Shown piece after piece: positions 15,885-64,000 of a stretch of 64,000 nt of DNA. The stretch lies in contig JAJEKV010000004.1 in NCBI GenBank assembly GCA_021234155.1, positions 13,110,716 to 13,174,715 on the forward strand, read 5' to 3'. The stretch comes from Isoetes taiwanensis (Eukaryota; Streptophyta; Lycopodiopsida; Isoetales; Isoetaceae). A program made the position numbers and the translations under genes. Numbering within the stretch: the stretch's first letter is position 1; the number at the start of each line of letters is the position of its first letter. The notes beneath the pieces are model-generated. The model saw only the letters and a list, made by a program, of their open reading frames with translations. It did not search any database and was not told the origin of the DNA.

Positions 15885-16496
15885 ATGGTATTGAGATATT
15901 CTCAAATTTCATCTCTGTAAATCAATGACCAGGATCCAGAACTCTATGATTCTTCATCTGTGGCACTGGCACACGACCTTTTCCACATACCACCCGCTCT
16001 ATAGTAGCCATTGCTATAATTAAACATCCAATAGCAATAGCCAAGAGAAAGCAAAACGACAGCTCTTTCGACCCTAGTTTTTCTATTCCAAGTTCAATCG
16101 AAATTCTAGAAAAGCACAAAAAAAGGGATAAGTTTACTTTGGCCAACTTATCCTAGCATCTCTTATAAGAACAAAAGATGGAATCCTAGAAACTACTTGA
16201 GTTCATATATGAGTTTGGCAGCAAACAGATCATCTACATCAAATGGGTGCCTAATTTGGTGCTAAGAGATGAAAACTTCTTGTACATAATGTAAAACATC
16301 TCACTTTGGGAAGTTCTCTCGACATAAATTTGCTGCAAGCAACCATATGGAGATTATAATGGGATCCAAAAATTGTCTTGATATTCATCTCCCTGCTCAC
16401 AAAAATTTAAGATGATGAAATGATAATACAATCTAGTGCAATCTGACTGTGGTGTCATGCAAAGTTTCCTTGTAGTAAACTCAATGTGTGAAGGAA

Positions 16497-16620
16497 TTTA
16501 AGCCCAGGGAAGACAACTTACAGTTGACCACTTCAGCTTCAAATAGATATGCAAAGTATCTAAGTCCAGGGAAGACAACTTACAATTGACTAGTTCAGCT
16601 TTAAATCGATATAGAAATTA
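16497..16620. repeat. two-copy ~64-base tandem repeat
   Basis: AAG(C)CCAGGGAAGACAACTTACA at about 16,500 and 16,563, each followed by a TTCAGCTT(C/T)AAAT segment. The same pair recurs in copy B at about 41,033-41,155 with more errors. Confidence 0.8.
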
Positions 16621-18690
16621 TGTGTCTTCTGAGAAATTCTAGATTGCTCATCTACTGCCTGAACCAGTCTTTGATATCGTTTACAACATCACCTCTTATT
16701 TCCGTAAAACAATACTCTCTATTCCACATTTCTGTATCCTTTTGAACTCAGAACCCAGCTACTCGAATTGCGAAGTTTGTAAATTGTTGTTCTTTTCCTT
16801 GAAGATCATTCTCTTCCTGAAAATGTGCAACCTTTTGCTTAACGTCATTAAGACATACTCTGCCTTCTCTAATACAACCCTCGAGGTATCCTTAATCTCT
16901 TTCTAACTTCCTTGGCAAACCTCTCAAACTCATCACCACCATGCGTGTTGTTTCCATCCAAACAATCAAACTCTGCCTCTCATAGCATATCTCAACTTTT
17001 TTAGTTCATGCATACATTAGCTGCAAGGATGATGAGAAAATGGAAGATGATGTTGCCGAAAATCGATGTGTAGCTACCACCTAGGCTGAAGTGGAAAAGG
17101 CTTTTATCCTTTATAAACTATCTCTAACAATCCTGATCTTCGATCTAAGGCAAAAAAATAACATCCACGAGACTGAAATTCTGTATAGAATTGTCTATAT
17201 CTTCTTGGTACAGTTGCACGAGAGAAAGATTTGTACTTCTCCTCTATGATTATGTCCTTGCTATCCACAATAAGTAAAGAAAGATAGAGTATTCCAAACA
17301 GATGGCACACAAATCCATGTTCAGTCCATAGATTGTTCAACTATAAAATACTATACTCAAGTTGGTAAAGAATTCTAATAAAAGTTCAGCTTGTTTGAAC
17401 AGTCAAATAGAGGGGGAAGTCGAGAAATACCAAAGAATTTGCAGACCATTTCCTACAATGATGTTCTAGTTGCATAAAAATTGAGCAAAATGTTTGTAAG
17501 CACAAAAAGTTTGGATGCATTCATATGGCAATGCAGATCAACAACTAAAGGAGATCACATGCAAGATCAATTAACTTAAGGAATGGAAGTGAATCAAATT
17601 TGGCTGTGATGTAGAATATATGCTAGACGTTTGATTTTTAGTGCCTCCACTTTGTAGACAATTCATATTTGCTTTTTGCAATTGAAATTTGCATGAATAT
17701 AACGTAAGAACTTTGAAAGTAAAACATTTTGAGCAAAAAGGAGAAAACTGCTTGAAAAAATTCTTGAAATGCCTCCCCAATAGTATTAAATGTAGCATCA
17801 GAATGATCCGTCCAACGTTGTAGTTACTTGCACCAAATTTAGGTACTTGAAACGATAAACTATATGCGTATGAGACATGCAATTATACATACACTGATTG
17901 AACATTTCCAATTCCACAATAATGCAACAAACTCAAATTACTTACCCTGGCACCCAAACCTTAAATGCTTCATGCGATGCTTCAATGTTCATTAACAATT
18001 CAGCATTTTCATCTAAGCAAATCTAGCATACCTAAAAAGATCAGAACACATTTATTAAATTTGAGAATAGAAGAAGGAAGATGATGTACGAAGAAAAGAA
18101 CTGCTCAAACTATTTACATATGTCTTATCTTAAACCTTAGGCACCTTCAATTTTGTAGAAACTGAGGCCTATTTTGCTTTACCTGAATGCGAGAGATCTA
18201 TTTTCCAAAACATTTAACCTTGAAAAATAACCTCAGTTTACTAACAAATATAAGAGAATTTGCAAACAACTACTTTTAATCTCTCGTTTTACCCGACCCA
18301 GCTAACACGAAATTTCGTGGCTTCATAAGTTTTCCTATTATACTATAGAGTCAGCTGCTTTGAGCACCTAAGAGGATCTGCAAAATAGAATTTGTTGTAA
18401 GAAAGAGAACGTGATTTCTAGTTAGGTGTTTTAAAAGCCGTTATAAGAATGCATATGCTGGCGTGCAAAAACATGGATGTTAGTAGAGTTGCCTAAAAAT
18501 GAAGCAAAGAACTACTGCTAGATCCGTACCTTGAGGATTCGAATATTGTCCATTCTGAAGACCCCAAAACATATGGTTGTTCGTATACAATCTAACTTAC
18601 AAATTGCCAGATCCATAACATAAGAATGGCATGAAAAAACTAAGACTATTCATAAAATAGAGACCAACGACCTTCCTAGCTACTGGTGTT
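16621..18690 (-). other. exon-like pieces of an unrecognised minus-strand gene or pseudogene
   Basis: Three minus-strand stretches look coding. 16,760-16,950 encodes, across two phases, EFERFAKEVRK, then VVLEKAEYVLNDVKQKVAHF and QEENDLQGKEQQF, a charged coiled-coil style. About 17,775-17,857 reads, using copy B (42,253-42,330), SDATFNTIGEAFQEFF. 17,946-18,022 is flanked by an AG acceptor and a GTAAG donor and encodes LDENAELLMNIEASHEAFKV. I do not recognise the protein and cannot link the exons reliably because both copies carry errors here. The counterpart in copy B is about 41,170-43,130. Confidence 0.3.
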
Positions 18691-18705
18691 TTGCTATATG
18701 TACAG

Positions 18706-18918
18706 TGGCAATGGCAGGATCAAACCCAAAGAAATACAAATCCGAAGCCTGATGCCTCAGGTTATAGCACTCCAAGTGCTTCAGAACTGCCTAACATGAA
18801 ACATAAAATGGGTATGCAACAACTTGAAAACACCATGCAGTTGTCTGAACTAAGTAAATACCAACTTCAATCGAACGATGCATATGCAATAGAAGAGAAT
18901 GATGAAAAAATGCACTAA
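18706..18918 (+). other. possible terminal exon, plus strand, unrecognised
   Basis: After a pyrimidine-poor but valid ATGTACAG acceptor, 70 codons run to TAA at 18,916-18,918: WQWQDQTQRNTNPKPDAS, then MKHKMGMQQLENTMQLSEL and a acidic end ENDEKMH. The Gln/Asn/Ser-rich composition is typical of the disordered tail of a plant regulator. In copy B (about 43,208-43,424) the frame is broken at CAG sites. No upstream exon was found, so this stays a suggestion. Confidence 0.25.
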
Positions 18919-19632
18919 TAAGCAGGTCGTTGCGGCTATGGCAGCTTCAGTTCATAAAACTTTTATGGCGGCTTCAGTTCATAAATTTCCCCTACTTTGG
19001 GACCGTATGGAATGGTGTTTAGGCCATAGCCACGACCTTCACCTGGTCTGAAGTACGAAATTCAAAATGCATCCAATAGTGGACGTCAACAATCCCGCAA
19101 GGGGGAAGGGGAATCCGCATGCGGCGTTCCCTGGCAACCAACACCATCTTAAAATAAAAAGAATATATTAAAATGCGACCAAAAACCTTAATCCAAAGTT
19201 TTGATTATCGAACTAGTCAAGTAACCCTAGGTCAATGCAACCTTATGTCAAATACTCCATTAGCCTATGTTGGCCTTAAATTCTAAGTCTATGTGTGCTG
19301 CAGGGCCCTATAAATACTTACTGAGCATCCAAAAAACTTTTGGGATTGTTTAAATATTTGGGATACATTTGAGAGAATCTAGAACCATAAAACTTCATGC
19401 CTTTATTTTTTTGAATGTTAACAATACAAATGAATAGTACATTTCGCATCCCTGATCTCAAACATACCAAAGGATTAAGTTTCCATGTGGAATGACAATG
19501 CACCCAATCTACATTTTTGTGCACTCAATATTATCACTGTCTTATCTTTACAATTCCAGAACTCATGTCAGGCCCAAAAAGCAAATCACAATCAATTTAA
19601 AGTAATCAAGACCCAAATGTGGCTGTCATATT

Positions 19633-20285
19633 AAGGAAGGAAGGAAGGAAGGAAGTATATTTTAACGTCCGCGGAGGCCAAACTTGACCTATGAGACGGT
19701 ACATGCAGTACACAAAGCAGATAAAACCACACCAAAAAGACAAATGCTACTATACAATGTGTCCCTACTACTGGGATGAAAAAACCCCCACATGGGAGGA
19801 AAAACCCTGGTAGTAGGCTCTCAGATCCCTTGTCCTATAAGGGATTCTCTGACGGTAGAGACTTGCAAAATGTAGGATGCGAGACGTGCAACCATTGGCG
19901 ATGCCAGCAATTGATGCAGCGGTGCCGCAGAGCATCTAAGATCAGCATGTGTTGCTCGGATATGCGTATATGCCGGACACTCTTGCAGAGCATGGTGCTC
20001 ATCCTCTACTGTCCGCATGTGGCAACACTGGCATATTCTCTCATGTCGGGGGATTCTCTGCCCTCCATCTGTAGTCCAACGACCTGTCTCAATTCTGAGA
20101 TGATGGGACCCCGTCCTCACAGAGGCAATAACTCTCCGTTTCTTCATAGATATATGCGCTTTCAAGTACTGGTGTGGGCCATGTTCCAGTGTTGGATTAA
20201 CTTGCGTGTGGTAGTGCTCTGTTTTAGGCTTTGCACGAGTGGCTGCATCCCACAGAGTGGTAGCAAAGCGCTTTTATAGTAGCAC
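19633..20285 (-). mobile_element. 5'-truncated LINE, C-terminal end with (CTTC)n tail (copy A)
   Basis: Minus-strand reading gives VNPTLEHGP, MKKRRVIASVRTGSHHLRIE and the knuckle CQCCHMRTVEDEHHALQEC (CX2CX9HX4C), ending IGQGI-stop at about 19,821. The 3'UTR contains GGCCTCCGCGGACGTTAAAA and ends in about five AAGG units on the plus strand (19,633-19,655), i.e. a CTTC tail. The protein closely resembles the C-terminus of the long LINE at 53,499-58,345 (VNPRLTRGP, MKKRRLIASIRTGAHHLCIE), so it is the same family. The open 114-codon frame here shows that the insertion is fairly young. Confidence 0.85.
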
Positions 20286-23190
20286 CAAGGATATATCACC
20301 GAGCATTAAAACAAGCAAGACTTGCTGCTTTATATTTAAGAATCAGTAATTTGCTCCCAAAACTGGATGTGCATATGCTGCCAGAGACATGTATTTATAT
20401 CTTGACAAAAAGCAAGAGACAATTTACCTTATCCGAGAATAAGGAAATAGAGATACAGATATGAAAACCTAGATCAAGTACAAAAATAACTTGTATTATT
20501 GCCACCATTTGTAGATTCTCAAATTTCAGCAGTGTTATCTTCAAGTTCCACTTCTATTTCCAATCTCCAAGCTCAAATGTAACCTACTTTGACAAAAGGC
20601 AAACATTAGGAAGAGAAGCCCCTACCTGCAGCCAACCAATACATCATTAGTCTGGTAAGGGTAAAGATGCAAGGGTCAAAAGTACCTTAGGCTTCTCGGT
20701 TGTCAACCGATCACCTAATGTAGACCTTTTTCCCAAAAGATTGCAGACTTAATAACCATGATCATAATGCCAATAAACCTTATAAGAAATGCGGTTCAGA
20801 TAGAAATCATAAATTAAAGGTGTAAAAAAGTCCACATAAACATCCTTGTTCTAACATTAGAGCCCATATCTCGATAAAACTTAGATCTGAGACATTCCAC
20901 GAGGGGTACATTAAAATGCTAATGCATGACTAAAAGTCAAGTGTTGTTTACAACAATAAAAATATCGGAGGAGATCCATTATGCTATATATAACATGCAA
21001 TTATATAAATCTATGCTTGAAGGCAAACAGTTCAGGTCATCTTATATTAGGGCATAAGGGGACCTATGAAGGAAAACATAAGGACAATATCGAATACATC
21101 TGATATCTGCCAAGTAAAACCCATGCTTTTATATCTAGAATGATATGTGAGCGAAGAATAACGAAAATTGATATTTCTGGACCAATAGAACATGTAAGGC
21201 CAAAGGATTATCTAAATTGTACCAGATGCTTATTTCCTTTATAGCAAGCGAATAAAAGTTCCAGCATCCATTAGCAACAGAGTGCTCATGTGCAAAACTA
21301 TACTTTCAGCTTGAAGAATGTAAGATCACATCTTTTCAAAAGAAAAGGGGAAACCTAAGTGCACTAACAGTGAAAATTGAATCATAAGATCATTATACCA
21401 TAAGGAATAAACTGTAATAGAAACAAAGGTCCCTTTACCATGTGTTACCCTACTTTACAACACTAGGATTGGGCACATAATATGTTTGCAATCTTTAATG
21501 TTAACTGTGTTCATGTACATTGACGAAATCTCAGCTCAACTAAGAAGCTTTTTTCCTTATCACAAAATATCACTAAAGTACCTAGTTTTTCTCGGTGTGG
21601 CAGTTGAAGTATGCTTCATACTTTGAAGCATAAGAACCATAACTTAAGTACACAATGCCATGCCATGCCACTGTTGCATATAAGATGCCATGCCTCTGCA
21701 CTCCTCAAGAACATGCTATGCCATAGCAGTGCTATATCTAAGACTTCTCACCAGAGAATGCAAAAGGGATGTCGTGATTGAAAGTATGTGCTATGTTTGC
21801 CAGGGAAAAATAGTCAAGGCAGATTCCTTATCTAAATATGATCTGTCAGAAGATCTTGGCAGAACCGAGCAAATTTCTGGCTATGTTAAAAGCGGCCTCC
21901 ATCCATAAAGGCAGAGAGAAGAGCTAACTTTCGGCTAAGAAGATAAGGTTTTTCCATAGCTATGGCTAAGGAAAAAAGGGTTTTCTCAAATTTTGGCTCA
22001 GGCAAGATTACAAGCCACGTGTAAAAAAAAGGATTAACAATTTAAAACTAGATTTATCTCATAAGGAAACTGATCTGGATCTGCCTGGGTTACTATTAAG
22101 TTAACCTCTTATAAATTGCAAGGGATTACTACATATATTCCGATGGTTAAACAATATGAACACCATTAGATTATGTCCATTGGTTGGCAATGGTCTTACT
22201 TTAAATCCTTCCTATGTCCACCTCCACCAACTAAAGCTGAGCAAAGCTGGAACATTTAAAGCTCAGTAGACTTGATACATGAGCTGACTGGATACCCATG
22301 CCCCAAGTATAACCAGTGGGGAACAATTTAATTAACAAGTTTATAAGATATGCTAACAAGCAGCTTGCGTATATACAAAAAAAGAAAAAGAAAAAGAAAA
22401 AACAAATAAACAAGAAAAGGAAGGGGGAAACCACGGGGCAATAGGCGGGAATGTTGCTATGGGAAGATGTCGATAAGCAGTTATTTTGCTACATATTCTA
22501 AACGAGGTGCACCCTGGACTACCACAGTCGTCGGATTTGTCGATCCTACAACCAGAATCGTATGTTGGGGTCTCTGGGCACCTCTCGTTTCGCTTATAGT
22601 TATTTATAATTTGAGGCGCCTATGATTTTGAAATATGAAATACGATTTCGCCTAAGGTTTTGAGGGAATATCGAACCTCTATATGGCTTTGCCTAAGATT
22701 TTAGAATATGAAATACGAGGGTTCGAACCTCCAAATGTCCTAATAAGACTACTTTAATCAATGTACCTTGTGAGCTAATGTGATTATTTTTTATCTTGGA
22801 TCTATGTTTTGGGTTGCCCCTAGGGGGGCAAGCCCTTGTTGATGTGGGTTTATGGCATATTCTAGGTATATGTTAGTATATACCAGGAATATGCCAATGA
22901 CTGCTACAAACTTGCTACAGGCTGTAAATTGGCGGTGGCCGCTGTTCTTGGGCAGCCATTTAGAAACCGGCTAACTGGTGCTCACACAGAATAACTGCGC
23001 TCAAGTCTGCAAGAACTTTAGATTCTGGCAGTAAGAGGGAGTGGGATTTTTCCAGAGTCGAGCATCAGTTCACTGAGACTAATATGTGTTGGCTTCGACA
23101 ATGCTTTATCATACCTCCCATAGATCACATGAGAGGCCCTTTTTAGAAATTTGGGCGGCGTGTTTTTTTGCAATGGCCGGTTCTAGAAAG
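20286..23190. other. AT-rich stretch, no gene recognised (copy A)
   Basis: No domain or RNA gene found. A purine tract (AAAAAAGAAAAAGAAAAAG...) lies at about 22,377-22,403. 22,625-22,735 contains a two-fold repeat around GAAATA(C)GA..CGAACCTC. A minus-strand reading at about 20,520-20,600 (RLEIEVELEDNTAEI) may be an exon end, but is unsupported. The counterpart is 44,766-47,670. Confidence 0.4.
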
Positions 23191-23295
23191 ATGAAAAGAA
23201 GTGCATGTGGTCTCCCAAAAAAGGCGAGAAAATTTGAAGGCTTTAAAGTAACCAATGAGAAATTTCGAGGTGGAGGGATGTTCCCCTTCAAGCTG
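23191..23295 (+). pseudogene. R2R3-MYB-like first exon, error-bearing (copy A)
   Basis: Same exon as 47,671-47,770. Here insertions change the frame after MWSPKK: GAAAATTTGAAGGCTTTAAAG replaces GAAGCTGAAGGCTTTCG. The start ATG and the donor GTAAGTAATG are intact. See copy B for the interpretation. Confidence 0.55.
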
Positions 23296-23309
23296 GTAAG
23301 TAATGTCTT

Positions 23310-24990
23310 TGTGATTCTTAACACAACAAAACTCTTCTAGATCACGATTCTTTGGGCAGCCCTCAATTTTCCCTATCCTTCCTTTCCACATCCCCGACTT
23401 GTAATCCATGTTCTCCATGACATAATGTAAAAACATGCCATACATCATTTAAAGTTACTAACTCATTACCCCTTGATGCATTATCCAGGGGAATTATCTA
23501 TTTTTTTCCATTGTGGATGAAGTCTTGGTCATGAAGACCATACATGCTGCCACCATTTCTAATACTTGCATTAAAAACCCATCCTTCCCAAGGTATACGA
23601 AAAGTGTTAGCATACCTCTTTGTTGATGATAACCTTGCAACATGCATTTTCTTTGCCGCGCATCTCCATCAGAACTATGTCCAATTAGGGGCCCTAAAAC
23701 TTTTCTTAAATGTATGTCCCAAAGTCTAAGCACCTCCTCCCATTGGCGTCTTACAAACTTATGGTTGAACTTATTACATGTAAGCTAGATCACCAAGACA
23801 AGCTTGATGTCGAGCATGCAAGGGATTAACTATGAGTACCGTGCATAATGTGCAATTACATTATTTGCAAATGCTTGTACAATGTGTTGATAACCATTAT
23901 CTCGATCCAACGAAACTATGAAAGCGACATCACATGCATGATGCGTGTACCTTTCCAAAAATCCAACCAAGCCATCATCTCTTGCGTCCCATTATGCAGT
24001 CTTCTTTATGATAGTCTCATCCTGCCCTTTCGATTGGCGGGGCACATGTCCAAGTGGTAAGCCTAGATCCTTCATATGCTTTGCATATATTCTTGCTAAA
24101 TGAATAAAGGTATCCTCTCTAACACCAACTCTATATATGAAACTCCCATGAAGCGAGAACACATCATGATGGATAAACTAGGGCCAGAAAAGTTTAAGGA
24201 TAGAAAATTATGCATTCGTCGGCCTCCCCAAATCTTAATGGTCTCAAAAAGCTCCTTTGTTGTTTGCTTATAGCACTTAACATCCGGTCGACAATGTCTG
24301 TGCAATGTCGATAAAGAAAACTCCATAGTGCAGGCTTTCTATCAAACTTGCCTTGAGAGTGTGCCTCAACAATATCTCCACAGAACTTTTCCGTCTTTTT
24401 TGATACATGGATTCACCGCAGTATCATCGCGCATTGATCGTCAGGTCGTAGACAATGTGACACTTGCCCCTTGGATATTGTGCCCCTTGCCACTTTCAAT
24501 ATCTCTCTGTTGGTCATGTAATCCATCTTCATACGTGTTTCTGTTGTTCTGCACCCTCTTGATGGTTTATCCTTTTGTCTATCAACTCTCATTCTAAATT
24601 CATCTTCCTTTGGAATTGACAAACAGTAGCTGCACTGGTAATTTGTGAAGGATTTTCTATCGTTACTAACTCTTCTACATAACTTATGCCTAAATGTACC
24701 ATCAATGGTAATGGGTTTTCCATTTGCATTAAAATAACCTTGCAGGTTTGGTTCGCAGTACCAATTGACTCCAGGTCTTGACTCATCTAAGAATGGCCTC
24801 AAGTCCGTTATTCTAGATGCATATCTATATTTCATTTGCCAATAACCCCAACATAAAGAAGCCAAGCATGCATTTCCTATATTTCAAATATTTAACATCT
24901 ACCGCTGTAATAAGAAAAAAAAAGGGACTTTGCTAGAAGTAATGCAAACTTACTACTTTGATCGTTTGAACCTGCTTCACTGGCTTTAGA
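23310..24990 (-). pseudogene. transposase-like gene of unassigned DNA-transposon type (copy A)
   Basis: Copy of 47,793-49,480. The N-terminal frame 24,413-24,865 is open (RPFLDESRPGVNWYCEP, ITIDGTFRHKLCRR), while the middle frame that is open for 192 codons in copy B is split by indels at CAG/CTG positions. The in-frame TAG and the frameshift in the C-terminal third occur in both copies and are thus likely genuine lesions. Confidence 0.6.
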
Positions 24991-25407
24991 TGATGTAGCT
25001 GCAATAAAAAGATCCAAATGTTCTATTATGTCTCGAGTGATAATCGCGTAGCAAGTTATATATTGTCTACAAAAATACGAACACTATTAAAACATGCATT
25101 CAAGCTATTTTACGGATCAATCATTTTTCACAAACAAGAAATTAGAAGGACTATATCACAGAATTTTTACAACAGGAATTAAATGTTGATAATCAAATAA
25201 AGCATTTGGGGAGCTAAAGTAGCTGCTTTCAACGCTGCAAATTACATCTGTAGCAATCACAACAGATACCACCTTATATAAATTCCACGAGACTTTTGCT
25301 AAAAAATACGTATAATAAAGGTCTTTATTTCTTTTAGAATTTGTATATGCTATTGGATATGCACGAGCACTACAAAATAAGGATAAACCATGCTTCAGCA
25401 TACAGGA

Positions 25408-27471
25408 AGTAATGATAACGCTAAACAGGGTGGCTAATCACAAAGCCCCGGACCTATCACAGACTAGCGGTGGAGTTACTAAAGTGTCTTTGAAATAGCA
25501 ATAGTGAAACAGTCACTGGAAACATTTTCAATGGGATAATACATACAGGTCTTCGGACAAGTGGACATACAGCGGTCATACCCCTACGGGGGGGGAAGGC
25601 GGACAAGAATCCAAAAATTGCGGGCCGATAATGGTAAGCTCGATCTTACGCCAAAATGGTTGGAAAAGCCACGGACGACAAATTGAAACAATGGGCGGCG
25701 GGAATATGAGGGCATAAAGGCGGCGGAGGTTTGAGACGAGAACACTCAACCACGAGACCATCTAGTAACCCCTCATTATATTAATAGAGCATATGAGCCA
25801 GTGAAAGAAAGTAATTTCTTTGCTTTGTGGATTTTAGGAAGGCATTCGATCTGATCTGGGGAGAAACTATTACAAAGATTGATAGACATGCAAGCCCCGA
25901 AAACATGATAGGATCGATTGCAAGGCGCCCCTATCTCGACCCTATTAGGGATATACATAGATGCGTTGCAGGGCTACATAGCAGAACAACAGGGGGACAC
26001 ACACGCCCCTACATTAGGAGACACCAAAGTACCTATTATGCTGTATGCCGATGATCTGAGCATGATGGCCACAAGGAACAAGGGAATGCATAGATTACTG
26101 AGGATACTAGAAACCTTCTCTGAAGAAATAGGGCTAACGATGCATCGACAAAAACCAAGATAGTCATCTTGGGCATAAGAATAAGCCTGAGACCCTTGGT
26201 GTATATGGAAAGCGAAATAGAGGAATCAACGAATATAGGTATCGGGGTTACGATGCACACGGGACGGGAAAATGGGCTAAGGGAGCAGACACGAGGTTCC
26301 AATCAGCCATTGGGAGCTATTTCAACATGAAAAATTTCTGCAATAGAAGTAGAATAATTGATTGGGACATCAAATGTTACCTATTTAGCGCCGTAGTAGC
26401 CACAGCCTTGGCCAGATGGGGCGAAGCATGGGGGCCAGGCCTAACAAATAAAAAGTGGGACAAGCATGAAGGAATCCTTAGACAATGGCACAAAGCAGGA
26501 GTTTAAAGTGCAGGGCAAATACACCACTAACAATCATGGTACTTTCGGCTGGCGAAAACCTATGGAGGTGAGGGCATGGGAGAGGACTATCAGATACCTA
26601 ATAAAGGACAATGCAGGAGATCACCAAGGAAAGCTGTCAAGCATTGCAATCATCGAGTCAGCAAAAATCACCGCGTTCTTACAAGCGATTGGGTGGTTTA
26701 AGGATGTAGCGAGATGGACGGAGAAAATGGGAATGAATCGAGTGACATAATAAATGGAAGGAAGAATGGGCAGATAGGGCTACCAGAGCATGGCTGCAAA
26801 AACACACAAGAACCAAGACACTCTGGCTCATGACAGTCTTCAATCCAGAACAACAGATAGGACACGAGATGTACCAAGATAACCTTTTTGGGAAAATCCC
26901 GAAGAGACACCCTCGCAAGAGTCGGATGGGGAGTCATGATCTAAGAATTGAAAAGGACATGTGGAGGGAATAGAGCGGGAGTCTGGGATATCACGAGTCT
27001 GTGACAACTGGCAAAGTGGAAGATGAGAACCACATGATTAATGAATGCCCGATATCACGGAGACATCGAGACAATTACGAAATATAAGATGGGGACAGCC
27101 GGTACACATTCGATGACAAGGGCCGAGACAATGGGGACTGGCGGATGCAATCCGGAGAATGGCGATTAGACCACGAGAGAAGTACATAAGGAAAAGAGGA
27201 TTGTAATATGAACCGCACAAGAAGGCGACTCATAAACCCCACACAAATTGTTCGATTAAAAGCGATTGATAACGGCGCCCTTTTACGGCCATGATCCCGA
27301 TGTAAAAGCGGGGTGCTAGTACTAATAAGTCGATCTTTAAAAAGGCTACAATTAAATCGGCGTGATGTGCTAGTAGCACCCTTTCGGGGAGCTTCGCCCA
27401 TGCTACATAAGTCCAGGGGGCACGAGGGCACAAGGGACATTAATTTCTATTCTATTCTATTCTATTCTATA
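25408..27471 (+). mobile_element. 5'-truncated LINE, microsatellite-tailed clade (copy A)
   Basis: Counterpart of 49,884-51,947 with heavy CAG/CTG damage. MLYADDLSMMATRNKG can still be read at about 26,038, and the (TATTC)n tail is at 27,446-27,471. Reading frames are not usable here; use copy B. Confidence 0.8.
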
Positions 27472-27533
27472 TTTTGTCTAGAGATTCTATAGGGTAAGGA
27501 TCTGCAATATAGTAGGAGCATACCAAAACATAC

Positions 27534-27935
27534 ATGTTAGAAGTGCTCAAATTATTTTATAAGCTTCAAAAGATTGTCTCTAGGTCAAATTTGGTTGATA
27601 TATATGCAAGGAGTGGTTCAATAGAAGCCTCGGGTTCTTTGATAAGATGCCACTTTAAAATTCTTATTATGGACATCAACATCTATTACAAGCAAACCAA
27701 ACTAAGACTCTCCTAGCAAAACCATCAAACAAGCATCTTTACTACCTCAATTGGTAGGACCATTGGAATTGCTATAGTGTTGGCATTCTTTGACAAGATA
27801 CTAGTTGGAGATGTCTAATCATGGATATCAACATCTATTACAAGCAAGGCAAACTACAATTATCTGAGACAAACTATTGAAGAATCATCTTTACTACTTC
27901 AATTGGCGGGACCATTGGATTTGCCATAGTGTTAA
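27534..27935 (+). pseudogene. PPR-type relic (copy A)
   Basis: Same relic as 52,016-52,412: VDIYARSGSIEASG is legible at about 27,595-27,640. See copy B. Confidence 0.45.
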
Positions 27936-28551
27936 AGGTAAAAGTAGAGAATTGCTTGTTTGAGACAAGACTATAAGATGTTAATTTTATCCTTAGAATC
28001 GACATGGCATGATCTCTTACAAGACCTTTATATGGCATCATGGAAAAAAATGAGGAGCATTGATGGCATACTAAACGCATCAAGTTCTTTTCTTCTTTCT
28101 TTTGGCAATCTGTCTTTAACAATTCCCCAACCACCGTTTCATTTAGTTTTCTTTTTTTTAGCATGCCCGGCAACCAAGCCTACAAGCTTTCTTGCAATTC
28201 TAGCCTATCCATGTAGCACCTCCACTTCAGCAAAAATTGATATGGCATTATCTTTCACCTATAGATCTTCTTTTTTCTAGATCTAGGGCCGACAAAATTA
28301 GATAATAGACCAAAAAGCAGATCCGCGAGGAGATGAGGAGGTCATGAAATAACCTCATATTGCCTCAATGCCCTACCCCTTCTTGACTTCTCCTTCAATG
28401 CTTCCCCTTCCCTCTAGCTTTTCATTTTCCTTCTCTTTATTTTTTCAAGCCATGCTGGGGCCCGTGGTATGTTCTTAGGGTAGAGATGCCATTCCAGCAG
28501 CCTCAATCTTGCTCAACCGCGACAAGACCAGGTATGTATTTAAGCAGATAT
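27936..28551. other. no gene recognised (copy A)
   Basis: T- and C-rich stretch with poor coding signals; 28,370-28,450 is a CTTC-rich tract. Counterpart of 52,413-53,037. Confidence 0.4.
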
Positions 28552-28877
28552 GGCAATTCTGCATGATGATAATGAACATGTGCAGCGGATTATAGACCGT
28601 CTTTTCGAGGGATTTGATCTTGCGGAAGAACCTCCCCGATAACTCAATGAGGGATGACAAACAACATAGAAAGTCAAAGGGATTTGATGACATTATGCCT
28701 AAAGATGAGGTTGGATTTGAGAATGGTCAAGATGATGCACGGTCCTCAAATATTGGCCTCTTGGGCATAAAGGATATTTCTGACATTGCAAAAAAAATAA
28801 AATCAGAAAGCTTATTAAACATATCAAAAAGATCAGACAACTTGCTGACTATAAAAGCCCAACGGATGTGGTTTTAG
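28552..28877 (+). other. unrecognised coding-like frame, broken (copy A)
   Basis: Counterpart of the 107-codon frame at 53,038-53,361. CAGCGG for CAG, TTTTCGAGGG for TTTCAGG and CCCCGATA for CCTGATA shift the frame in its first third; the part from about 28,680 onward (KDEVGFENGQDDARSSNIGL) is intact. Confidence 0.45.
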
Positions 28878-29021
28878 GTAAAGCATCTAACCTCAAGTTT
28901 AAACTTAAGCATATATGTGCTGTGGTGTTTCTTTGAACTCCTACACATGCATACGACTGTTGACAGATTTGGGAAACAACAATATTCGATCATTTTTGTC
29001 AATCTTTGGTTGTTCTTATAT

Positions 29022-32000
29022 TAAGAATAGAATAGAATAGGTTTTCACTTTGTACCATTGTATGGGGCCGAGTTCAATACCGTCTCGGAGGACACAATTG
29101 AGTCCGTGCATCCATAACCTCCTGGAGGTATGACCCCATAAACCCCACTTGCCCGTATTCAATAACTCATGCAATGGTTGGCGGGCACTAGTAACCAAAC
29201 ATACAGCTCTCGGATATGGGCAAACGCTTGGGCAAATCTAGAGGGGCATGACATTCATCCTCAATGGGCACCACGGTGGCAACACCAGCAAAGCCTTTGC
29301 TCTCATGCTTCCAGAGTTCAACGTCCTGTCTCAATGCGGTGATGTGCACTGTTTGCGAATGGAAAAACTATAAATCTGCGCTTCTTCATGGCAGCCCGGG
29401 TGTACAAATCTTGGTGTGGACCTCTCGTGAGCCTAGGATTGACTTGCTGGCGATAGTGTGCCGACTTAACGTCGCGTCCGAGCATCGACATCCCAAAACT
29501 TCGAAGGAAAGTAGCATCTAGGTGCGACTTAAGGGCCTTGTGGTCTTTCTTTGTCCTTACATGTACGCATCGCTTGCACGTACACCCGGTATGAGAATCA
29601 TCGAGCTTGCTTATCCTTCCAACAGGCTTTTCGGGCATTGGGGACCCATCATGCCATGGCCAAAAGCAAGGTTGAACAGCGCGTATCACCATGGCGACCA
29701 CCTTGCCGGAAGTAAATGATATGGCGTTCCAATGCGGCCCGGATTGAAGGGGTAGAAAACCCGTCTCTTGGGTAGGATCACGGTATGGGCGTGGACTTTA
29801 CCCCAAGGGCTCGTGCCAAGAAGGCTTTTGCACTGCTCGAGGTCATTCCGTGTTTGAGGGATATCACCCCGGACCCCACATACGCCCCATACAAAAGGAC
29901 CGGCTCGACCAAGGCGAAAACAGTGTGCTGTTGGCCCTGCACATACAACTCGCCTTGTGGTACGCGTTCTGCGCATGGCATATAGTGCTTTCAACTGCTG
30001 GTGACCCCGCAACCCGATGGCGGCATCCCAATGGGTGGTAGTAGAAAACTTCGGTCTCTCTAGCGGCACCTTAGTTTTAGGCAAGTTAACTCTCATGCCG
30101 GTGAATGGCCGAAAAGTGTCAAGAGCATCCGATTGGCGTTGCATGTCCTGCAGGGAGTATAGGGCGGGGAGGTTGACATTGTCGGCATATATGAGTTGCG
30201 GATTGTGTGATGCATGAGATGGGCGGCGCCCGCACCTCCATGCTCGAGAGCCAATCTTCTAGCTGGTCAATGTATAGGCCAAAGTGTGTGGGGAGAGGGC
30301 AACCACGGCGCACTCCAATACTCTTGATTAGGCTGTCTCGGACGATGTGATCCCCGGCCCGAGCATGCCTCATATAGCCTATATCTTTGCATTCTCGCAA
30401 GTCAAGGGGGTCTCCACCTGGTCTGTCCCATAACGTCGCCCGTCGGAGGCTGTGTCAAAAGCTTTTTGCGAAATCCACGAAAACAATGATAGCAGGGTTT
30501 TTTGTCGGTGATTCACACTATCCTCAATCAATGTGCATAGAGTGAAGATATGATCAATGGTGGAATGCACGGGCTGAAAACCTGCACAGTGTGAGAGCTC
30601 GCCGTCTGCCTCCCTCTGCCCATATTGTCGGCCCGCTCTCAAGGATGCCGATAGCAGTTTGCAAAGAGAGAGCTGACCATAATAGTGCGATAGTTGGCGG
30701 GCGGTGAGGGTCCCCGTCTTGTATATGGGCACAACTCTACTAATGGTCCCTTTGGAGGGAAGCCTTCTTGCAATGTTTTATTGAATAATGCCGTGAGGAG
30801 CCCGAGGAGGGGCACCGATGGGGGGCCCGGCCCATTTCAGTTTCACACGCATGCCATCTAAATCTGCGCCTTCCCATTAGCTAGGCGTTGTAGGCCCATG
30901 ATGACATCCCCTCTGCGATGACGAGCCATGCCTATCGTGGAGGGGCGGTGTTTGGCCCTCGGCGAAATTAAATAAAAAAGTCATTGCCAAATCTTGTATC
31001 CATTGTTCCAAGGTGATGTTCCCTATATGGTCATGCGGGTCTTGCTCAAGATCCTTCTCTAGAATGTCTTGGGGTGTCAATCGAGGAGACCAAACATCAT
31101 TCTTTGATGCTGCGAAGGTATCCTGGCTTTCTTGTTCTTGAGGAAGGGCCCGGTATTGGCCGATGGCCCGTGGGGAGGTGGGATCGATGATTTGCGGGTG
31201 TGCATTTGAGCTCCCTCGGCACTCATCATCAAACTATTTGTTGCGGGAAGGTGGTAGCGCCCAGGGTTCGCCGTGATCGGCCTCTCCCAAAGCATCTTTC
31301 AACAGTGTCTGAAGCGGGTGAGTCAGTGGCAATTCTTTGTTGAAGTATGGGGAGTTCTTGCAGTCCTGCCGGGTCATGCTCAAGCGGTGAGCATAGGTCC
31401 TGCCACTGCAGTCGTAGTCGAGCAGCGGTGGGGCACAGGCGTTGAGGCGTGGGTGCAGGGGAGCTTGCCAATGGAGATGCACGAGCGGTCCGGTGGTCCG
31501 GAAGTCTACTTCCTGCGTTCAGTAATGCACGTTCCAATGGAAAATGGGTAACCAAGTGTAGATCCACATTCCTCAACCAGCGGATAATCTACCACCTTGG
31601 AGCCGCCCCTTGGTTCTCACGTCTATAAATGCGGCGGTGGAAGATGGCCATTATGCCAACCCATTACAAATAACCCGGGTCAAAGATACTACCCGGCAAC
31701 AACAAGCTGCGTGCCATAGCGCCAAATATGGTTGTCGTCGATATCCTTGACCAAACCACCTCTGCCCGATTCAAGCGCAAGGCGTCCTGCTGCCGGGGCT
31801 CAAATTTTGGGATACCTTTCGGCTCTATGCGTGCATTAAAATTAAGCCAAGCAACATAACCTTGTTTGTTTGTTTTCTTTGTATGTCATCATATAGATAG
31901 ACATGGGGCTCCAATCTATCCACATCCAGAATGAGGTGTTATAAAAGTTGCTCTCGGCATGTGGAAAGTAGCATCTTTGCTATGAAGAGAATCTTGCCCT

Positions 32001-33880: not shown

Positions 33881-34059
33881 AAAGAGGCTGTTAGAGTGAT
33901 AAATGTTTAAAAATATAAGCGATGCCATACATGTGGATTTGTACGGGGAAGAGGAAGAAGCCGGGTTTGGAGGGTTCAACCTGGGGAGGAGGTTGATTCG
34001 GTTACTATCGAATTTTTTAGGATAGGCTTTTGCCGAGGAAGCTTTTTTTTGGAATGGGA

Positions 34060-34400
34060 TTGGACACAAGAACACAAGGCCGAGCGCGAAGGAACACAAA
34101 GCGGCTGACTTATCCGGCCGAATATTGAGTGTGCTAGAACTTGAGCAGAGAGCCCGAGAACACAAAGCAAAGGAGCGACTCACATATTGAGTGTGCTAGA
34201 ACTTGAACACATAGCCTTGAACCTGAGAAAGCGACTCATCCACAAGAACACAAAACGAAGCGAGGAAGGCGACTCATCTACAAGAACACAAGACAAAAGC
34301 GGCGACTCATCCACATATATTGAGTGTGCTAGAACTTGAACACAAGGCGAGGCAGAAAGCGACTCATCCGGCCGAATATTGAATGTGCTAGAACTTGGAA
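34060..34400. repeat. minisatellite around ACAAGAACACAA..GCGACTCATC (copy A)
   Basis: Same array as 58,540-58,890, with GCAGAAGGC changed to variants such as GCGGC or GAAAGC. Confidence 0.75.
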
Positions 34401-39480: not shown

Positions 39481-39507
39481 CTATCTTAATTAGAACTTAT
39501 TACCTTT

Positions 39508-40695: not shown

Positions 40696-40706
40696 NNNNN
40701 NNNNNN
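40696..40706. other. assembly gap of 11 N
   Basis: Eleven N separate AGCAATAA from CCGAACAAAAGATGG. Sequence directly right of the gap restarts the segment first seen at about 16,168. Eleven is not a usual fixed gap length such as 100; very short runs are typical of optical-map scaffolding when adjoining contigs are predicted to overlap (inference). Confidence 0.95.
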
Positions 40707-49883: not shown

Positions 49884-51947
49884 AAGTAATGATAACGCTA
49901 AACAGGGTGGCTAATCACAAAGCCCCAGACCTATACGGGCTAACAGTGGAGTTACTAAAGTGTGCTGAAATAGCAATAGTGAAACAGGTCACCGACATTT
50001 TCAATGGGATAATACATACAGGTCTTCCAGACAAGTGGACATACTTGAGGGTCATACCCTACGGGGGGGGGACAAGAATCCAAAAATTTTGGGCGATAAT
50101 GGTAAGCTCGATCTTACTAAAATGGTTCGGAAAAGCCCCGGACAAGCAAATTGAAACAATGGGCGGCGGGGAATATGAGGGCATAGGGGTGAAAGGTTTC
50201 GCACCGAGAACACTCAACCACAGACCATCTAGTAACCCTACGTATATTAATAGAGCATAACAGAGCCCAGTGAAAGAAAGTAATTTGCTGCTTTGTGGAT
50301 TTTAGGAAGGCATTCGATATACAGTACCGAGGGAGAAACTATTACAAAGATTGATAGACATGCAAGCCCCAGAAAACATGATAGGATCGATTGCAAGACG
50401 CCCCCTATCTCCGACCCTATTCGGGATATACATAGATGCGTTGCAGGGCTACATAGCAGAACAACAGGGGGACACACACGCCCCTACATTAGGAGACACC
50501 AAAGTACCTATTATGCTGTATGCCGATGATCTGAGCATGATGGCCACAAGGAACAAGGGAATGCATAGATTACTGAGGATACTAGAAACCTTCTACGAAG
50601 AAATAGGGCTAACAGTAAATCTGACAAAAACCAAGATAGTCATCTTCGGGCATAAGAATAAGCACAGACCCTTCAGGTATATGGAAACAGAAATAGAGGA
50701 ATCAACAGAATATAGGTATCTGGGGTACGATGCACACGGGACGGGAAAATGGGCTAAGGGAGCAGACACGAGGTTCCAATCAGCCATTGGGAGCTATTTC
50801 AACATGAAAAATTTCTGCAATAGAAGTAGAATAATTGATTGGGACATCAAATGTTACCTATTTAGCGCCGTAGTAGCCACGACGCAACTGTATGGGGCCG
50901 AAGCATGGGGGCCAGGCCTAACAAATAAAAAGTGGGACAAGCATGAAGGAATCCTTAGACAATGGCACAAACAGGAGTTTAAGGTACGGGCAAATACACC
51001 ACTAACAATCATGGTACTCGAAACTGGGCAGAAACCTATGGAGGTGAGGGCATGGGAGAGGACTATCAGATACCTAATAAAGGACAATGCAGGAGATCAC
51101 CAAGGAAAGCTGTCAAGCATTGCAATCATCGAGTCAGCAAAATCACACGTTCTTACAAACAGTGGGTGGTTTAAGGATGTAGCGAGATGGACCAGAGAAA
51201 TGGGAATGAATCTGAGTGACATAATAAATGGAAGGAAGAATGGGCAGATAGGGCTACCAGAGCATGGCTGCAAAAACACACAAGAACCAAGACACTCTGG
51301 CTCATGACAGTCTTCAATCCAGAACAACAGATAGGACACCAGATGTACCAAGATAACCTGCTGGGAAAATCCTGAAGAGACACCCTCGCAAGAGTCAGGA
51401 TGGGGAGTCATGATCTAAGAATTGAAAAGGACATGTGGAGGGGAATAGAACAGGAGTGCCGGATATGCAGAGTCTGTGACACTGGCAAAGTGGAAGATGA
51501 GAACCACATGATTAATGAATGCCCGATATACGGAGACATCAGAGACAATTACAGAAATATAAGATGGGGACAGCCAGTACACATTCTGATGACAAGGACA
51601 GAGACAATGGGGGACCTGGCAGATGCAATCCAGAGAATGACGATTAGACACAGAGAAGTACATAAGGAAAGAGGGATTGTAATATGAACCGCACAAGAGG
51701 CGACTCATAAACCCCACACAAATTGTTCAGTTAAAAGCTGATTGATAACGACGCACCACCGCACGGCCATGATGCCGATGTAAAGCGGGGTGCTAGTACT
51801 AATAGAATCAGTCTTTAAAAAAGGCTACAATTAAATCAGCGTGATGTGCTAGTAGCACCCTTTCAGGGAGCTCGCCCATGCTACATAAGTCCAGGGGCCT
51901 GAGGGCACAAGGGACATTAATTTCTATTCTATTCTATTCTATTCTAT
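49884..51947 (+). mobile_element. 5'-truncated LINE with intact YADD and (TATTC)n tail (copy B)
   Basis: Starts abruptly inside the RT domain (VANHKAPDLYGLTVELLK) and ends with GGGACATTAATTT plus five to six TATTC units (51,921-51,947). Length is about 2.06 kb. It belongs to the same clade as the minus-strand LINE at 53,499-58,345: both share SPTLFG(I/L)YID, a YAD motif, (L/M)(T/R)VNL(T/A)KTK and a terminal CX2CX9HX4C knuckle. Truncation at the 5' end is usual for LINE copies. Confidence 0.9.
49886..51687 (+). pseudogene. LINE reverse transcriptase and C-terminal knuckle
   Basis: RT pieces: HKAPDLYGLTVELLK, then GLPDKWTYLRVIPYGGGTR and IMVSSILLKWFGKAPDKQI, frameshifts between 50,150 and 50,350 (VDFRKAFD near 50,300), then one frame of 318 codons from 50,351 with LSPTLFGIYIDALQGY, MLYADDLSMMAT (catalytic YADD about 57-60 residues in) and GLTVNLTKTKIVIFG. 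A further frameshift near 51,300 leads to RMGSHDLRIEKDMW and CRVCDTGKVEDENHMINEC. The enzyme would copy the element RNA at the nicked target. It has no endonuclease domain because of the truncation. Confidence 0.88.
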
Positions 51948-59813: not shown

Positions 59814-59814
59814 T

Positions 59815-59846
<32 letters not shown>

Positions 59847-62610
59847 AAGGTTTGTTTTATATTGCATCTATAATAGATACATCATAAGGTATATCCTAGG
59901 GGATATATTGAAAAAGTCTAAGCATATTGTCCAAAAATCATGGTCCTTATAAAATGGATCCATGAACCACACTAAAACAACCAGCTTAATATATTGTTTA
60001 TACAGTTTCAATACAGGTATACATAGTTGCACAAAACACTGTAACCAGATCATTCCAACAGTGAATAGCTCAAGATTCGTCCAGAAGGTCCTGTAGTGTG
60101 AGATCAGCTATTGTCCTATTCCCAAAAATCGTGAGAAGAGTGTCTAGGACAACTGTCTGGAAGTTGGTGAAGTCTAACAGAAGCAAGACATGTGCTTCTC
60201 GTTTCTGCTGCCATTTATGGTAGAGATTGGTAAAATATGGTTTGAGACTATTGAATCTCCATACCTCAGTCCTTTGCGCACCTTCGTTATTGCTTTTGCA
60301 TGCACTACTTCCTGTTTAAGTTGAATGAGAATACTCTCCAGTTCAGCTTTAGGTTCATCATCCTTGTTTGCTGCTACTCCCATAGCTCGATCCATGCTTC
60401 CAACCTGTTAAGTCTCCTCTATGCATCTGTGTAGAACATCATCAGCAATTGTTATATTAGAGAGAAAGAAATCATGTAATCCATAGAACCTTCCAAAACT
60501 ATTCCATGCTGGATCATATTTCTTCCCTTTCAACAGTTTGTGTGCTACTGCAGTAATCTGTATAATGTCAATGAATGCATGCTTCAGCCAAGTTATGGAG
60601 GGGGTGTGGTTATTCATGGCCACTCTATTTCTATGTAGCCAAATGATCCAACAGCTCAATGTTCTAGTTGTAATTTCAATTCTGCTGCTGTCTTCCCAGA
60701 AAGTTAACAAATTTAAATCTGTTGGCATTCCTTTGGTAATCTGGGATGCCCAGCTCCAAAATTCTGCTAACCATAAGCATGTAAATACATGATTAGAGGT
60801 TTCTACTTCTCCACATAGAGGGCATTGGTTGGAATGTGTGCTGTCATATAAAGCCCTTTTCTGGTTTGTAGGTAAGATTTGATGTAAGGCTATCCATCTA
60901 AAAGTTTTGATCTTACAGGCCATGTAGCCTGCCCAGCCTTTTGCACATATTCCTGCCAATCTTTCCTCCTCACATCGCCATAGAACACCTGCTCTTGAAG
61001 GTTTCAATTGAATGAGAGCCTTATATATGTCTTTAACTGAATAAATTTCTTTATTATTCAATTGCCACATGCTGGAATTGTTGCTTAACTCCTCATACTC
61101 TCCAATACTGTTCATCACCAAGTTATAAATCTATTTGTCTAATTCTGATCCTTTGGTTTTATCTGCAACCTCTTCCCAAGTCATCCATCTGTCCTGTATT
61201 CTCAAATCTTCTATTCTCCTAAACCCACACTTATGCCATTGCATATATTTTTGGGGATGTTTCAGGGCCAAGCATCCCACATTAACTGGTGCAAGATCTG
61301 GATGCCAGAAAAAATTCAGATCTCTACTTCTTGCATCTATACTTGGTGGTCTGTAGCACAATGCATCATTGTTCCATGCCTCTAGCATTCTTTTTAAGGT
61401 GTTTGATGTACCTGGACACGGTGTGAACTGAAACAAAGCTGAGTCTGGTAATTGGTGTTTGAGACTATGGCTGCCCACTGGTAATGACTCTTGCACCCAG
61501 AATTTCACCAATTGGAGGGCTGGGGATGGCCTGAATGCATGTATAGCCCTCCAGACCATCTTAGCTGCCAGTGCCTGAGCTTGAATAAATATGTCCTTGC
61601 ATCCTAGTCCATCTTCCTTCTTAGGTTTAATTAAATCTGTCCAGGCAACTTTGTGGGAGCCCTGCCATATGAATTTCCTTATTGCAGCTTCCATTGTTCT
61701 GTAGGAATTCTTATCCCTTACTATAGCAGAGGAAAAATAGACATGTGTACTGCCAATAACAGCATTGGCAATTTCTACTCTCCCTGCCAAAGATAGGGTA
61801 GAGGAATACATAGACAATTTTTTCTTGATCCTCGTCACAATTGGATCCCATAACCCCTGCAGTGAACAATTTAGGGATAAGGGGATCCCTAAAATACTTG
61901 TAGCAGAGTTACAGTTCAGAACCTTAATTCCTTGCAATGCAGAATCCTGTGAGTCATAAATAATTGCACTTTTATTCTTATTCAACAGAATCCCTGCAGC
62001 TGCACCAAATTTATCCATTGCCAATAAGAATTTTCCTAGACTTTGATCTACTTTTTTGAGGAAGACAAAGGTATCATCTGCATATTGCATAATGGTAAAA
62101 AAGCCATCCCCCCCTGGAAGTTCCAAACTATTTATTTCTCCATCAGTTTGCATTTGCATAATCTTTCTTGTAACCATCTCAGCAACAATTAAGAATAAAT
62201 ATGGGGCTAAAGGACATCCTTGTCTTACTCCTCTTTGGCATCTGAATAACTTTGTAGGAGTACCATTTAATATAAAAGCTGAAGATGCATTGATATTAAA
62301 GCTCCATACTTTTTGGTATACCTTATTGGAGAAACCCATATAAGACATTGCCTTTTCAAGGAATTGCCAGTTAATTGTGTCATATGCTCTCTTAAAATCC
62401 AGTTTGAGAAGCATACATTTTTGTCCAGATCTTTTATTCCAGTGTAAACCTTCTGCTGCCCCAATATAGTTATCCAAAATATTTCTCTGTGGTAAGAATG
62501 CTGATTGACAAGGATTTATAGTTGAGTGTAGGATCATCTTCAACCTATTTGCCAAGGCTTCAACGAGGGTTATATTCTTCAGGGATCTTATCTAGCACTT
62601 TATATTTGCA
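59814..62610 (-). mobile_element. L1-like LINE, 5'-truncated, poly(A) tail (copy B)
   Basis: Minus-strand L1-type ORF2 from inside the RT domain to a 3' poly(A) tail seen as 27 T at 59,814-59,840. The 5' end falls around 62,600, where the normal 'RPISL.N' segment is cut to SLKNITLVEALANRLK. Poly(A) tail and zf-RVT end separate it from the microsatellite-tailed LINEs. No target-site duplication was identified. Confidence 0.9.
60408..62555 (-). pseudogene. L1-type reverse transcriptase with zf-RVT, single in-frame stop
   Basis: One phase is open from 62,555 to 60,408 except for a TAG at 61,131-61,133. The first 474 codons cover RT: PCQSAFLPQRNILDN, LKLDFKRAYDTINW (Asp about residue 53), QRGVRQGCPLAPYLFLI and MQYADDTFVFL (YADD at 158-161), then LLNKNKSAIIY, SILGIPLSLN and KFIWQGSHKVAW. 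After the stop, 237 more codons carry VKDIYKALIQLKPS, KIKTFRWIALHQILPTNQKR and CPLCGEVETSNHVFTC, the zf-RVT zinc-binding domain of plant L1 elements, and end RCIEET-stop. Aside from the stop and missing N-terminus the protein is remarkably well preserved, so insertion was probably recent. Confidence 0.92.
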
Positions 62611-63179
62611 GGATTCATCATAATCTTCTACTCCAGTTTCTAGTATAATAATGTTAGACATAGAAGAAACTGTGATTGTTAGTTTTGGTTGCTACGGATG
62701 ATGAAAGGCTTCACATCCAGCATTTTGGGTTTGAAACCAAGACAACCCACAGAGCGGGGAGCTATGGTTGAAAACCCCAGAATGCTGGGTAAGAAGCCTT
62801 TGCCTCAATGTAAAAACCTCCTCTATTTTTAGCGTTAGATCAAGGAGCTATTAATGGCCTTGATCTACTATTGAGAGAATTGCAGCAAGAGAGAACAGTA
62901 AAAAAGGAGACGGATCTAAATTGGAGGTAAAAGAAATGGAAGGGCGGGTAAAATCAAGCAAATATACTTTCACTAAGAGAATCTTGACCTTGCATCCGCA
63001 TTTAGTTGGTAGATAAGGTTGAAAACAAAGTAGGAGGTTTTTACTATGCATATAATAGAACCATTGACTTTAAGACATTAGATGAATTTATGAATATATA
63101 GAGATGCGTAATCTTCAATTCGACTCATCTATCTATCTATATACAAGAAATTTAACACGTCCTATGGTGCATGTTCCAA
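62611..63179. other. no gene recognised (copy B)
   Basis: Intergenic sequence left of the TTCTAGAA array, counterpart of 38,091-38,699. No motif. Confidence 0.45.
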
Positions 63180-63960
63180 CAGTGCAAGTTCCAATTTTCG
63201 CATTCCTTTATATTCTTCAACATTCTATGTACTATATTTAGCATTCATGAAGATTCCCTTAGATTCTCATAGAATTTTCTATTTTGATTGAGATGCTTAC
63301 CCATGAGCATTTAGAACCTTTCAAAATAATCTATCTTGGATCTGTGCAACATTTCTAAAACACTTTCTATTTTTAGATTGAGGCGCTTACCCTGAGCATC
63401 TAGAACATTTTTTTTTTCAAGATTTATATTGTATACCTTTATGAAACATTTTAGAACATTCTATTGTGGCTCTTTGCAAAATCTTAAAAAAACTCTAAGA
63501 TTTCATCAAGATCCTTGTAGATTCCCTTAGATATTATGAAGATTCCCTTAGATTCAACTAGATTTTAAGAGATTCCTTTAGACTTATAAATATCTTCCTA
63601 GATTCTCTTATAGTTTATGAGATTTCCTTAGATTCCCTTTAATTCTCCTGGATTCCCTTACATTCAACAAATTTCTAGAACATTCTAGAACTTTCTGGAA
63701 TATTCTGAAACTTTCAAAACATTCTAGAACTTTCTGGAAGTATTTCCCTATTTCCTTACATCCCCGAAGATTCCCTTACATTCTAGAACTTATTAGAACA
63801 ATTTGGGACTTTCTGGAAGGATTCTCTTAGATTCCCCCTAGATTCTCTTATATTCCAAAATATTTTAAAATTCTAGAACTTTCTAGAACATTCTAGAAGA
63901 TTTTAGAACTTTCTAGAGCCTCCAGAACTTTCTAGAACTTTCTTGAACTATCTAGAATGT
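63180..63960. repeat. array of TTCTAGAAC and AGATTCCCTTA words with HSE-like spacing
   Basis: The first half is rich in (T)AGATTC(C/T)CTTAGA and the second half in TTCTAGAACnTTCTAGAA. At 63,673-63,705 seven alternating TTC/GAA triplets start every 5 bases (73, 78, 83, 88, 93, 98, 103), and at 63,871-63,898 six do so. This is exactly the nTTCnnGAAn alternation of heat-shock elements, although a simple satellite with a 10-base palindromic unit would look the same. Confidence 0.85.
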
Positions 63961-64000
63961 TATATTCTATTTTATCTTAATTAGAACATTACCTTTAAGT

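Follow-up and report, generated by a model that had tools for sequence, protein, structure and literature searches.

A direct repeat of about 24.5 kb around an 11-N gap in the Isoetes taiwanensis assembly is probably an unmerged contig overlap

A dovetail repeat around a short gap

The question raised by this locus is whether a long stretch of DNA that appears on both sides of a short gap is present twice in the genome of Isoetes taiwanensis, or whether a single locus was written twice into one scaffold. The DNA analysed here (the window) is 64,000 nucleotides long and contains one gap, a run of 11 N at 40,696–40,706. Comparison of the sequence left of this gap with that right of it by megablast at E 1e-20 returned a single match, 16,169–39,507 against 40,709–63,996, which formed one colinear block on the plus strand at 90.0% identity. 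With the 5,000 bases that follow the window (L001) added, an anchored alignment of the two copies, here called A and B, gave 22,610 identical columns (88.7% identity), 929 substitutions and 1,202 gap openings (623 + 579). The direct repeat across the gap that a first-pass annotation of the window had described is thereby confirmed, and it contains the following features.

16,169–40,695, plus strand: copy A, the 3' end of the left contig (24,527 nt), its last base adjoining the gap
40,709–64,000, plus strand: the part of copy B inside the window, the 5' start of the right contig, running on to 65,204 (L001:1204)
60,408–62,591, minus strand: LINE-like reverse transcriptase frames (RVT_1, zf-RVT), long in B and broken in A (~36,000–38,110)
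50,306–51,307, plus strand: second LINE-like reverse transcriptase frame (RVT_1), by which the middle region was judged
47,793–49,361 and 23,330–25,020, minus strand: transposase-like gene with several broken frames, in both copies

The full copy B spans 40,709–65,204 (24,496 nt) and ends just past the window. A is aligned up to 40,695, with the gap starting at 40,696, and B is aligned from 40,709, two bases after the N run ends at 40,706; the same region therefore lies on both sides of the short gap and touches it from both. The annotation had placed the start of B at the gap, in agreement with this alignment, and had A running almost to it, which is correct as to nearness but understates A, as its sequence extends to the last base before the gap. 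The ends that it gave for the two copies, 39,507 and 64,000, do lie in the repeat but are only the limit of similarity and the limit of the window. The check that it had proposed, whether A 39,508–40,695 recurs just beyond 64,000, gave a positive answer: this segment is found again at 64,047–65,204 (G000:C1045:13174762-13175919), starting 47 bases after the window end, at 71% identity and with bases 56–1188 of the 1188 in the query covered. Part of A's end (40,177–40,643) also matches a second time near the end of B, at L001:1189–1672 with 75% identity, which represents a local tandem repeat near the end of contig A.

The largest indel between A and B is 18 nt, and neither copy can therefore carry an inserted element of its own, in agreement with the annotation, which had all internal elements common to both. 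The in-frame stops of the transposase-like gene are likewise common to A and B (frames read by eye), in line with the TAG lesions originally noticed, and A's gene has additional frame changes. The three frames of this gene had no Pfam match above the cut-off, nor at E up to 5, and one relative at 91% identity was found at L021.

Two further observations concern transposon sequence in the window. A young LINE-like family, which we take to be a LINE, is represented at 19,633–20,272 (minus strand) by its 3' end, which has a weak zf-RVT match and carries a short (TTCC)n tail. This family has at least 37 matches at 97–98% outside the scaffold, a lower bound because the search, with a 4.2-kb query, scored 40 of 3,652 candidates (the matches listed did not include B's own start, although the anchored alignment covers it); some of the other copies extend past the point where the window copy stops. 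Outside the repeat, at 740–2547 (plus strand), RNase H-like domains (PF17919, PF17917) and an integrase core (PF00665) mark the remains of a retrotransposon, presumably of Ty3 type.

The dovetail geometry alone is no bar to a true tandem duplication, because contigs also break inside long tandem repeats. A very recent duplication of 24.5 kb, with each copy assembled once at a contig end and the junction hidden in the gap, would have to be young enough for little real divergence, to be bounded just where the two contigs end, and to be joined by a gap of the kind that the scaffolder, as described in the BiSCoT paper (PMC7649008), uses for map-overlapping contigs. The measured differences, moreover, mostly resemble sequencing error (see below), and we consider such a duplication very unlikely.

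The poorer copy changes sides

Other genomic copies of elements inside the repeat served as judges of which copy is wrong at each point. Twenty-four loci were cut, five of which (L003, L005, L011, L019 and L020) are the window's own copies; the other 19 were used in BLAST comparisons. A column-by-column test, for which A, B and the judges were aligned with MAFFT, drew on 15 of the 19, omitting the more distant L007, L008, L009 and L026; it skipped columns in which judges disagreed or showed a third letter (at most 77 of 294 differing columns, for L004 with L006). Compared with the anchored alignment, a first MAFFT alignment of A and B had a higher number of substitutions and a lower number of gaps; the spectra reported below were taken from anchored columns.

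The copy far from the gap (on the B side in the middle) was closer to the judges in all 19 BLAST comparisons. A was favoured at B's start (2/2 and 5/5), and B was favoured both in the middle (1/1 and 5/5) and at A's end (6/6). Identity to L014 at B's start was 98.4% for A and 86.0% for B; at A's end, the corresponding values against L004 were 84.1% for A and 92.5% for B.

Individual columns gave the same picture. At B's start, the substitutions private to B and to A numbered 133 vs 6 with judge L012, 74 vs 3 with L012 and L013 together (a sub-region), and 57 vs 1 with L014–L018; private gap columns under the same judges were 60/0, 21/0 and 35/0. On the A side it was A that departed from the judges, with substitutions private to A and to B of 42 vs 4 (L021), 56 vs 1 (L022–L025), 161 vs 12 (L004), 84 vs 2 (L004 with L010) and 148 vs 2 (L004 with L006), and with gap columns of 20/1, 14/0, 81/8, 53/0 and 67/0, respectively. 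Between 85 and 95% of all differing columns were private to the bad copy (judges L004, L012, L014–L018, L021 and L022–L025). The two poorer stretches are as follows.

40,709–45,480 (end approximate), plus strand: error-laden start of B, corresponding to A 16,169–20,999
23,000–40,695, plus strand: error-laden end of A, worst in its last 1.6 kb

Identity in the anchored alignment drops towards the gap from both sides: it is ~83% in the first kilobase of B, 94–97% in A 21–25 kb, and 74–75% in the last 1.6 kb of A. The proposal that the damaged copy switches, with B bad at its own start and A bad at its own end, is thus borne out, and the switch lies at about A 21–23 kb, where the direction of differences at CWG trinucleotides is balanced (3 and 2). 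A is the poorer of the two over about 18 kb.

This pattern bears on two other explanations. An old tandem duplication with ~11% real divergence would account for the raw identity of 88.7%, but it predicts that private differences are shared evenly between the copies, and the outside judges show the opposite, with the differences changing sides according to distance from the gap. Alternatively, the two contigs might represent two alleles of a heterozygous locus (a haplotig overlap), a variant that would still be a false duplication, is counted within the probability given to that reading below, and entails some real sequence difference between the copies. Overlaps of this sort are usually allelic duplications according to the BiSCoT paper (PMC7649008), and the crossover zone at A 21–23 kb retains 23 substitutions (over 1,967 sites), some of which could be real allelic differences. 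Against this, the substitutions private to the good side are few, ~0.1–0.6% where judged: 2/1,904 columns (L004 and L006 agreeing, with 51 disagreeing substitution columns set aside), 1/1,077 (L022–L025), 1/653 (L014–L018), 3/694 (L012 and L013), 4/1,704 (L021), 6/1,713 (L012) and 12/1,906 (L004 alone). We regard the allelic variant as possible, although rather unlikely.

Error types and cytosine context

The types of difference between A and B were compared with real divergence among other copies in the same genome. The ratio of mismatches to gap openings between A and B was 1472:880 with blastn defaults and 929:1202 in the anchored alignment, as against 5213:279 (blastn defaults) over 32 pairs of other copies, these pairs being non-independent and one of them (L015/L016) itself indel-rich. 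Homopolymers of at least 5 were mostly shortened in the bad copy at A 29,000–40,695 (42/65 shorter, 5 longer), and 14/34 were shorter and 2 longer at B's start. Transitions at A 29,000–40,695 were strand-asymmetric (A>G 138 vs T>C 62, G>A 116 vs C>T 42), and those at B's start were symmetric (A>G 26, T>C 25, G>A 16, C>T 18). Real divergence was near symmetric in the first LINE against six copies (LINE1; A>G, T>C, G>A and C>T of 294, 259, 278 and 306), in L012/L013 (24, 22, 30 and 22) and in L021 (17, 20, 16 and 20). A second LINE against four related copies (LINE2), although real divergence, was also asymmetric (A>G 54, T>C 28, G>A 47, C>T 76), and strand asymmetry alone is therefore weak evidence. 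Deamination of 5mC was rejected as the main source of the differences, as C>T at CpG affected only 14/297 sites at A 29,000–40,695, vs 52/139 for CAG>CGG in the same stretch.

The substitutions cluster within 2 nt of cytosines in CG or CHG context, where 7–12% of sites differ, vs 0.9–1.8% elsewhere. Counts of differing sites are given below for B's start (A 16,169–20,999) and A's end (A 23,000–40,695), in that order.

Within 2 nt of a CHG cytosine: 83/702 and 364/3,199
Within 2 nt of a CG cytosine: 21/311 and 106/1,334
Near both CG and CHG: 12/135 and 101/917
CHH only: 29/3,096 and 167/10,468
No nearby cytosine: 4/370 and 19/1,040

The step from CHH-only to CHG sites is thus seven- to thirteen-fold between A and B. 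Real divergence has no such step, with CHG vs CHH-only counts of 453/2,683 vs 1,150/6,807 in LINE1, 69/1,179 vs 138/2,417 in LINE2 and 21/351 vs 92/1,621 in L012/L013; a tilt of up to about two-fold was seen in L021 (18/226 vs 58/1,201) and in a third LINE (LINE3; 16/775 vs 18/1,694).

The commonest changes could be named. CAG>CGG and CTG>CCG affected 12/43 and 17/49 sites at B's start, 25/96 and 3/48 at A 23,000–28,999, and 52/139 and 40/177 at A 29,000–40,695, while the corresponding values in real copies were 2/145 and 10/266 (LINE1, six copies), 1/108 and 0/64 (LINE2), 0/28 and 0/24 (L012/L013), and 1/21 and 2/13 (L021). Reverse cases, in which the good copy has CSG where the bad one has CWG, numbered 5, 5 and 15, vs 29, 28 and 92 in the usual direction. 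It is the base after the centre that decides: the centre of CAG differs at 120/278 sites vs 23/1,270 for CAH, and that of CTG at 80/274 vs 12/1,077 for CTH. The C itself differs at 90/604 CWG vs 30/2,401 CWH sites, and at 9/95 CCG vs 20/951 CCH sites.

The differences between A and B mostly look like sequencing error rather than evolution, and paralog divergence in the same genome lacks these error types to a like degree. The evenly shared, evolutionary-type divergence expected of a true tandem duplication was not found. Differences that are indel-rich and sit at CG and CHG cytosines, unlike those of other copies (for CAG>CGG, 52/139 at A 29,000–40,695 vs 2/145 over six LINE copies), leave an old tandem duplication scarcely credible; between them, the outside judges and the error spectrum led us to reject or demote a real tandem duplication, whether old or recent.

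The dependence of the errors on CG and CHG as opposed to CHH context is that expected of nanopore 5mC miscalls. Wick et al. report a like error type of nanopore basecallers at the bacterial Dcm sites CCAGG and CCTGG (PMC6591954), and Ferguson et al. consider methylation differences a likely cause of lost basecalling accuracy (PMC9749173). From the sequence pattern we infer that the bad ends would be near-raw nanopore sequence of CG- and CHG-methylated DNA. It seems reasonably likely, more broadly, that unpolished contig ends carry a readable imprint of CG and CHG (not CHH) methylation, mainly as CAG>CGG and CTG>CCG, that could be used by way of false-duplication pairs. If this is true, a polished twin beside a raw copy would let methylation contexts be deduced for any nanopore assembly with no need for raw signal. 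The apparent imprint in the FASTA of a transposon-rich lycophyte locus was unexpected and is a useful by-product of the artefact, and the methyl-context pattern offers a test that works on sequence alone and helps to tell raw nanopore error from real divergence. Among the matches listed, no title dealt with CHG methylation read from unpolished plant assembly ends, or with Isoetes methylation.

Scaffolding and the origin of the repeat

The published assembly of Isoetes taiwanensis comprises 1658.30 Mb in 204 scaffolds and 909 contigs, and its pipeline is described as nanopore sequencing, miniasm, racon, pilon and Bionano DLE-1 hybrid scaffolding, followed by LR_Gapcloser, pilon and purge_haplotigs (PMC8566536). 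According to the BiSCoT paper, contigs with labels in common are written out by the Bionano tool in succession, separated by 13 N, so that the shared region is duplicated; short reads tend to be placed on just one of the two copies, and the mean overlap length was 47 kb in NA12878 (PMC7649008). The gap studied here has 11 N instead of exactly 13. The two bases that follow it, 40,707–40,708, differ from A's 16,167–16,168, and together with the 11 N they make 13; our guess is that they were filled in after scaffolding.

The motif CTTAAG, which we take to be the DLE-1 label site, occurs ten times in A and five times in B. Four sites are common to both copies (A 17,575, 28,904, 29,528 and 39,631, corresponding to B 42,072, 53,384, 54,006 and 64,123), six are found in A only and one in B only, and sequence errors may explain the six A-only ones. 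As four of B's five sites are common to A, the two contigs share map labels and an optical map could overlay both copies.

Taken together, the dovetail geometry, the one-sided errors that switch between copies, the error types and a pipeline that includes a scaffolder with this published behaviour favour an unmerged contig overlap as the best reading, one that the first-pass annotation had also put forward as probable. We put the probability at about 0.95 that the repeat is a false duplication, in which two overlapping contigs were left unmerged and laid end to end around a tiny gap. The locus would be present once per haploid genome, and two nanopore contigs would have ended inside it, overlapping by ~24.5 kb. 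The optical-map scaffolder would have put both contigs on the same map interval without merging them and written contig 1, a short fixed gap and contig 2, with the overlap then appearing twice. At each point the copy that was already better would have attracted most of the polishing reads in competition with the other, leaving near-raw nanopore errors at the gap-facing ends of both contigs. Thin coverage of contig ends, to which the damage had first been attributed, may be no more than part of the cause: some 18 kb of A is affected, and the alignment of reads to one copy only, as described for such duplicates (PMC7649008), would also give a switch of the poorer copy.

No N runs were found in L001–L026. 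A second dovetail was sought at L006/L008 (C1082, 71 kb apart), which share only 2.75 kb and have unmatched flanks in the fetched pieces; they are therefore read as two LINE copies. In a trio at C1106 (L027–L029) the main blocks have 92–99% identity, with ~5.5 kb of each place compared, and two of these places, L027 and L028 (G000:C1106, 45.7 kb apart), share colinear same-strand blocks at 94–99%, which may be a real duplication or a second false one. L015 (G000:C29) and L016 (G000:C981), longer copies of the young LINE-like family, are separated by 111 mismatches and 62 gap openings over 2 kb, and one or the other may therefore be poorly polished; the fetched flanks L030–L033 did not extend their match.

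The duplication most likely belongs to a class of assembly artefact that is already known, and is of little biological interest in itself. If our reading is right, ~24.5 kb is counted twice in the assembly, and the broken twins of the LINE and transposase-like frames could pass for pseudogenes or recent duplicates. A single case was examined, and it therefore gives no frequency for the assembly; the figure of 1,879 scaffolded contigs in 204 scaffolds (PMC8566536) leaves, by subtraction, up to 1,675 contig joins, and the other joins accordingly deserve a check. Syntenic gene pairs with low Ks, which the authors of the assembly put forward as possible recent segmental duplications (PMC8566536), lie on separate scaffolds, and the present case does not account for them.

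The nearest known system is the Bionano duplication (PMC7649008), which resembles this case in that a region of tens of kilobases appears twice around a very short fixed gap, and in that one copy tends to stay unpolished. It differs in having a gap of 13 N, where we find 11 N and two unmatched bases, and the present case was judged from sequence alone; most likely, it works like that artefact and arose in the same way. The false duplications described in vertebrate assemblies (PMC9516828) are alike in that duplicates produced by haplotypes or sequencing errors inflate gene counts, whereas the present duplicate is an overlap of contig ends within a single scaffold. The nanopore errors at Dcm motifs (PMC6591954) share with those at this locus their centring on a C-W-G methylation motif; they are bacterial and were seen in reads, whereas those reported here fall in plant-like CG and CHG contexts and were read from an assembly.
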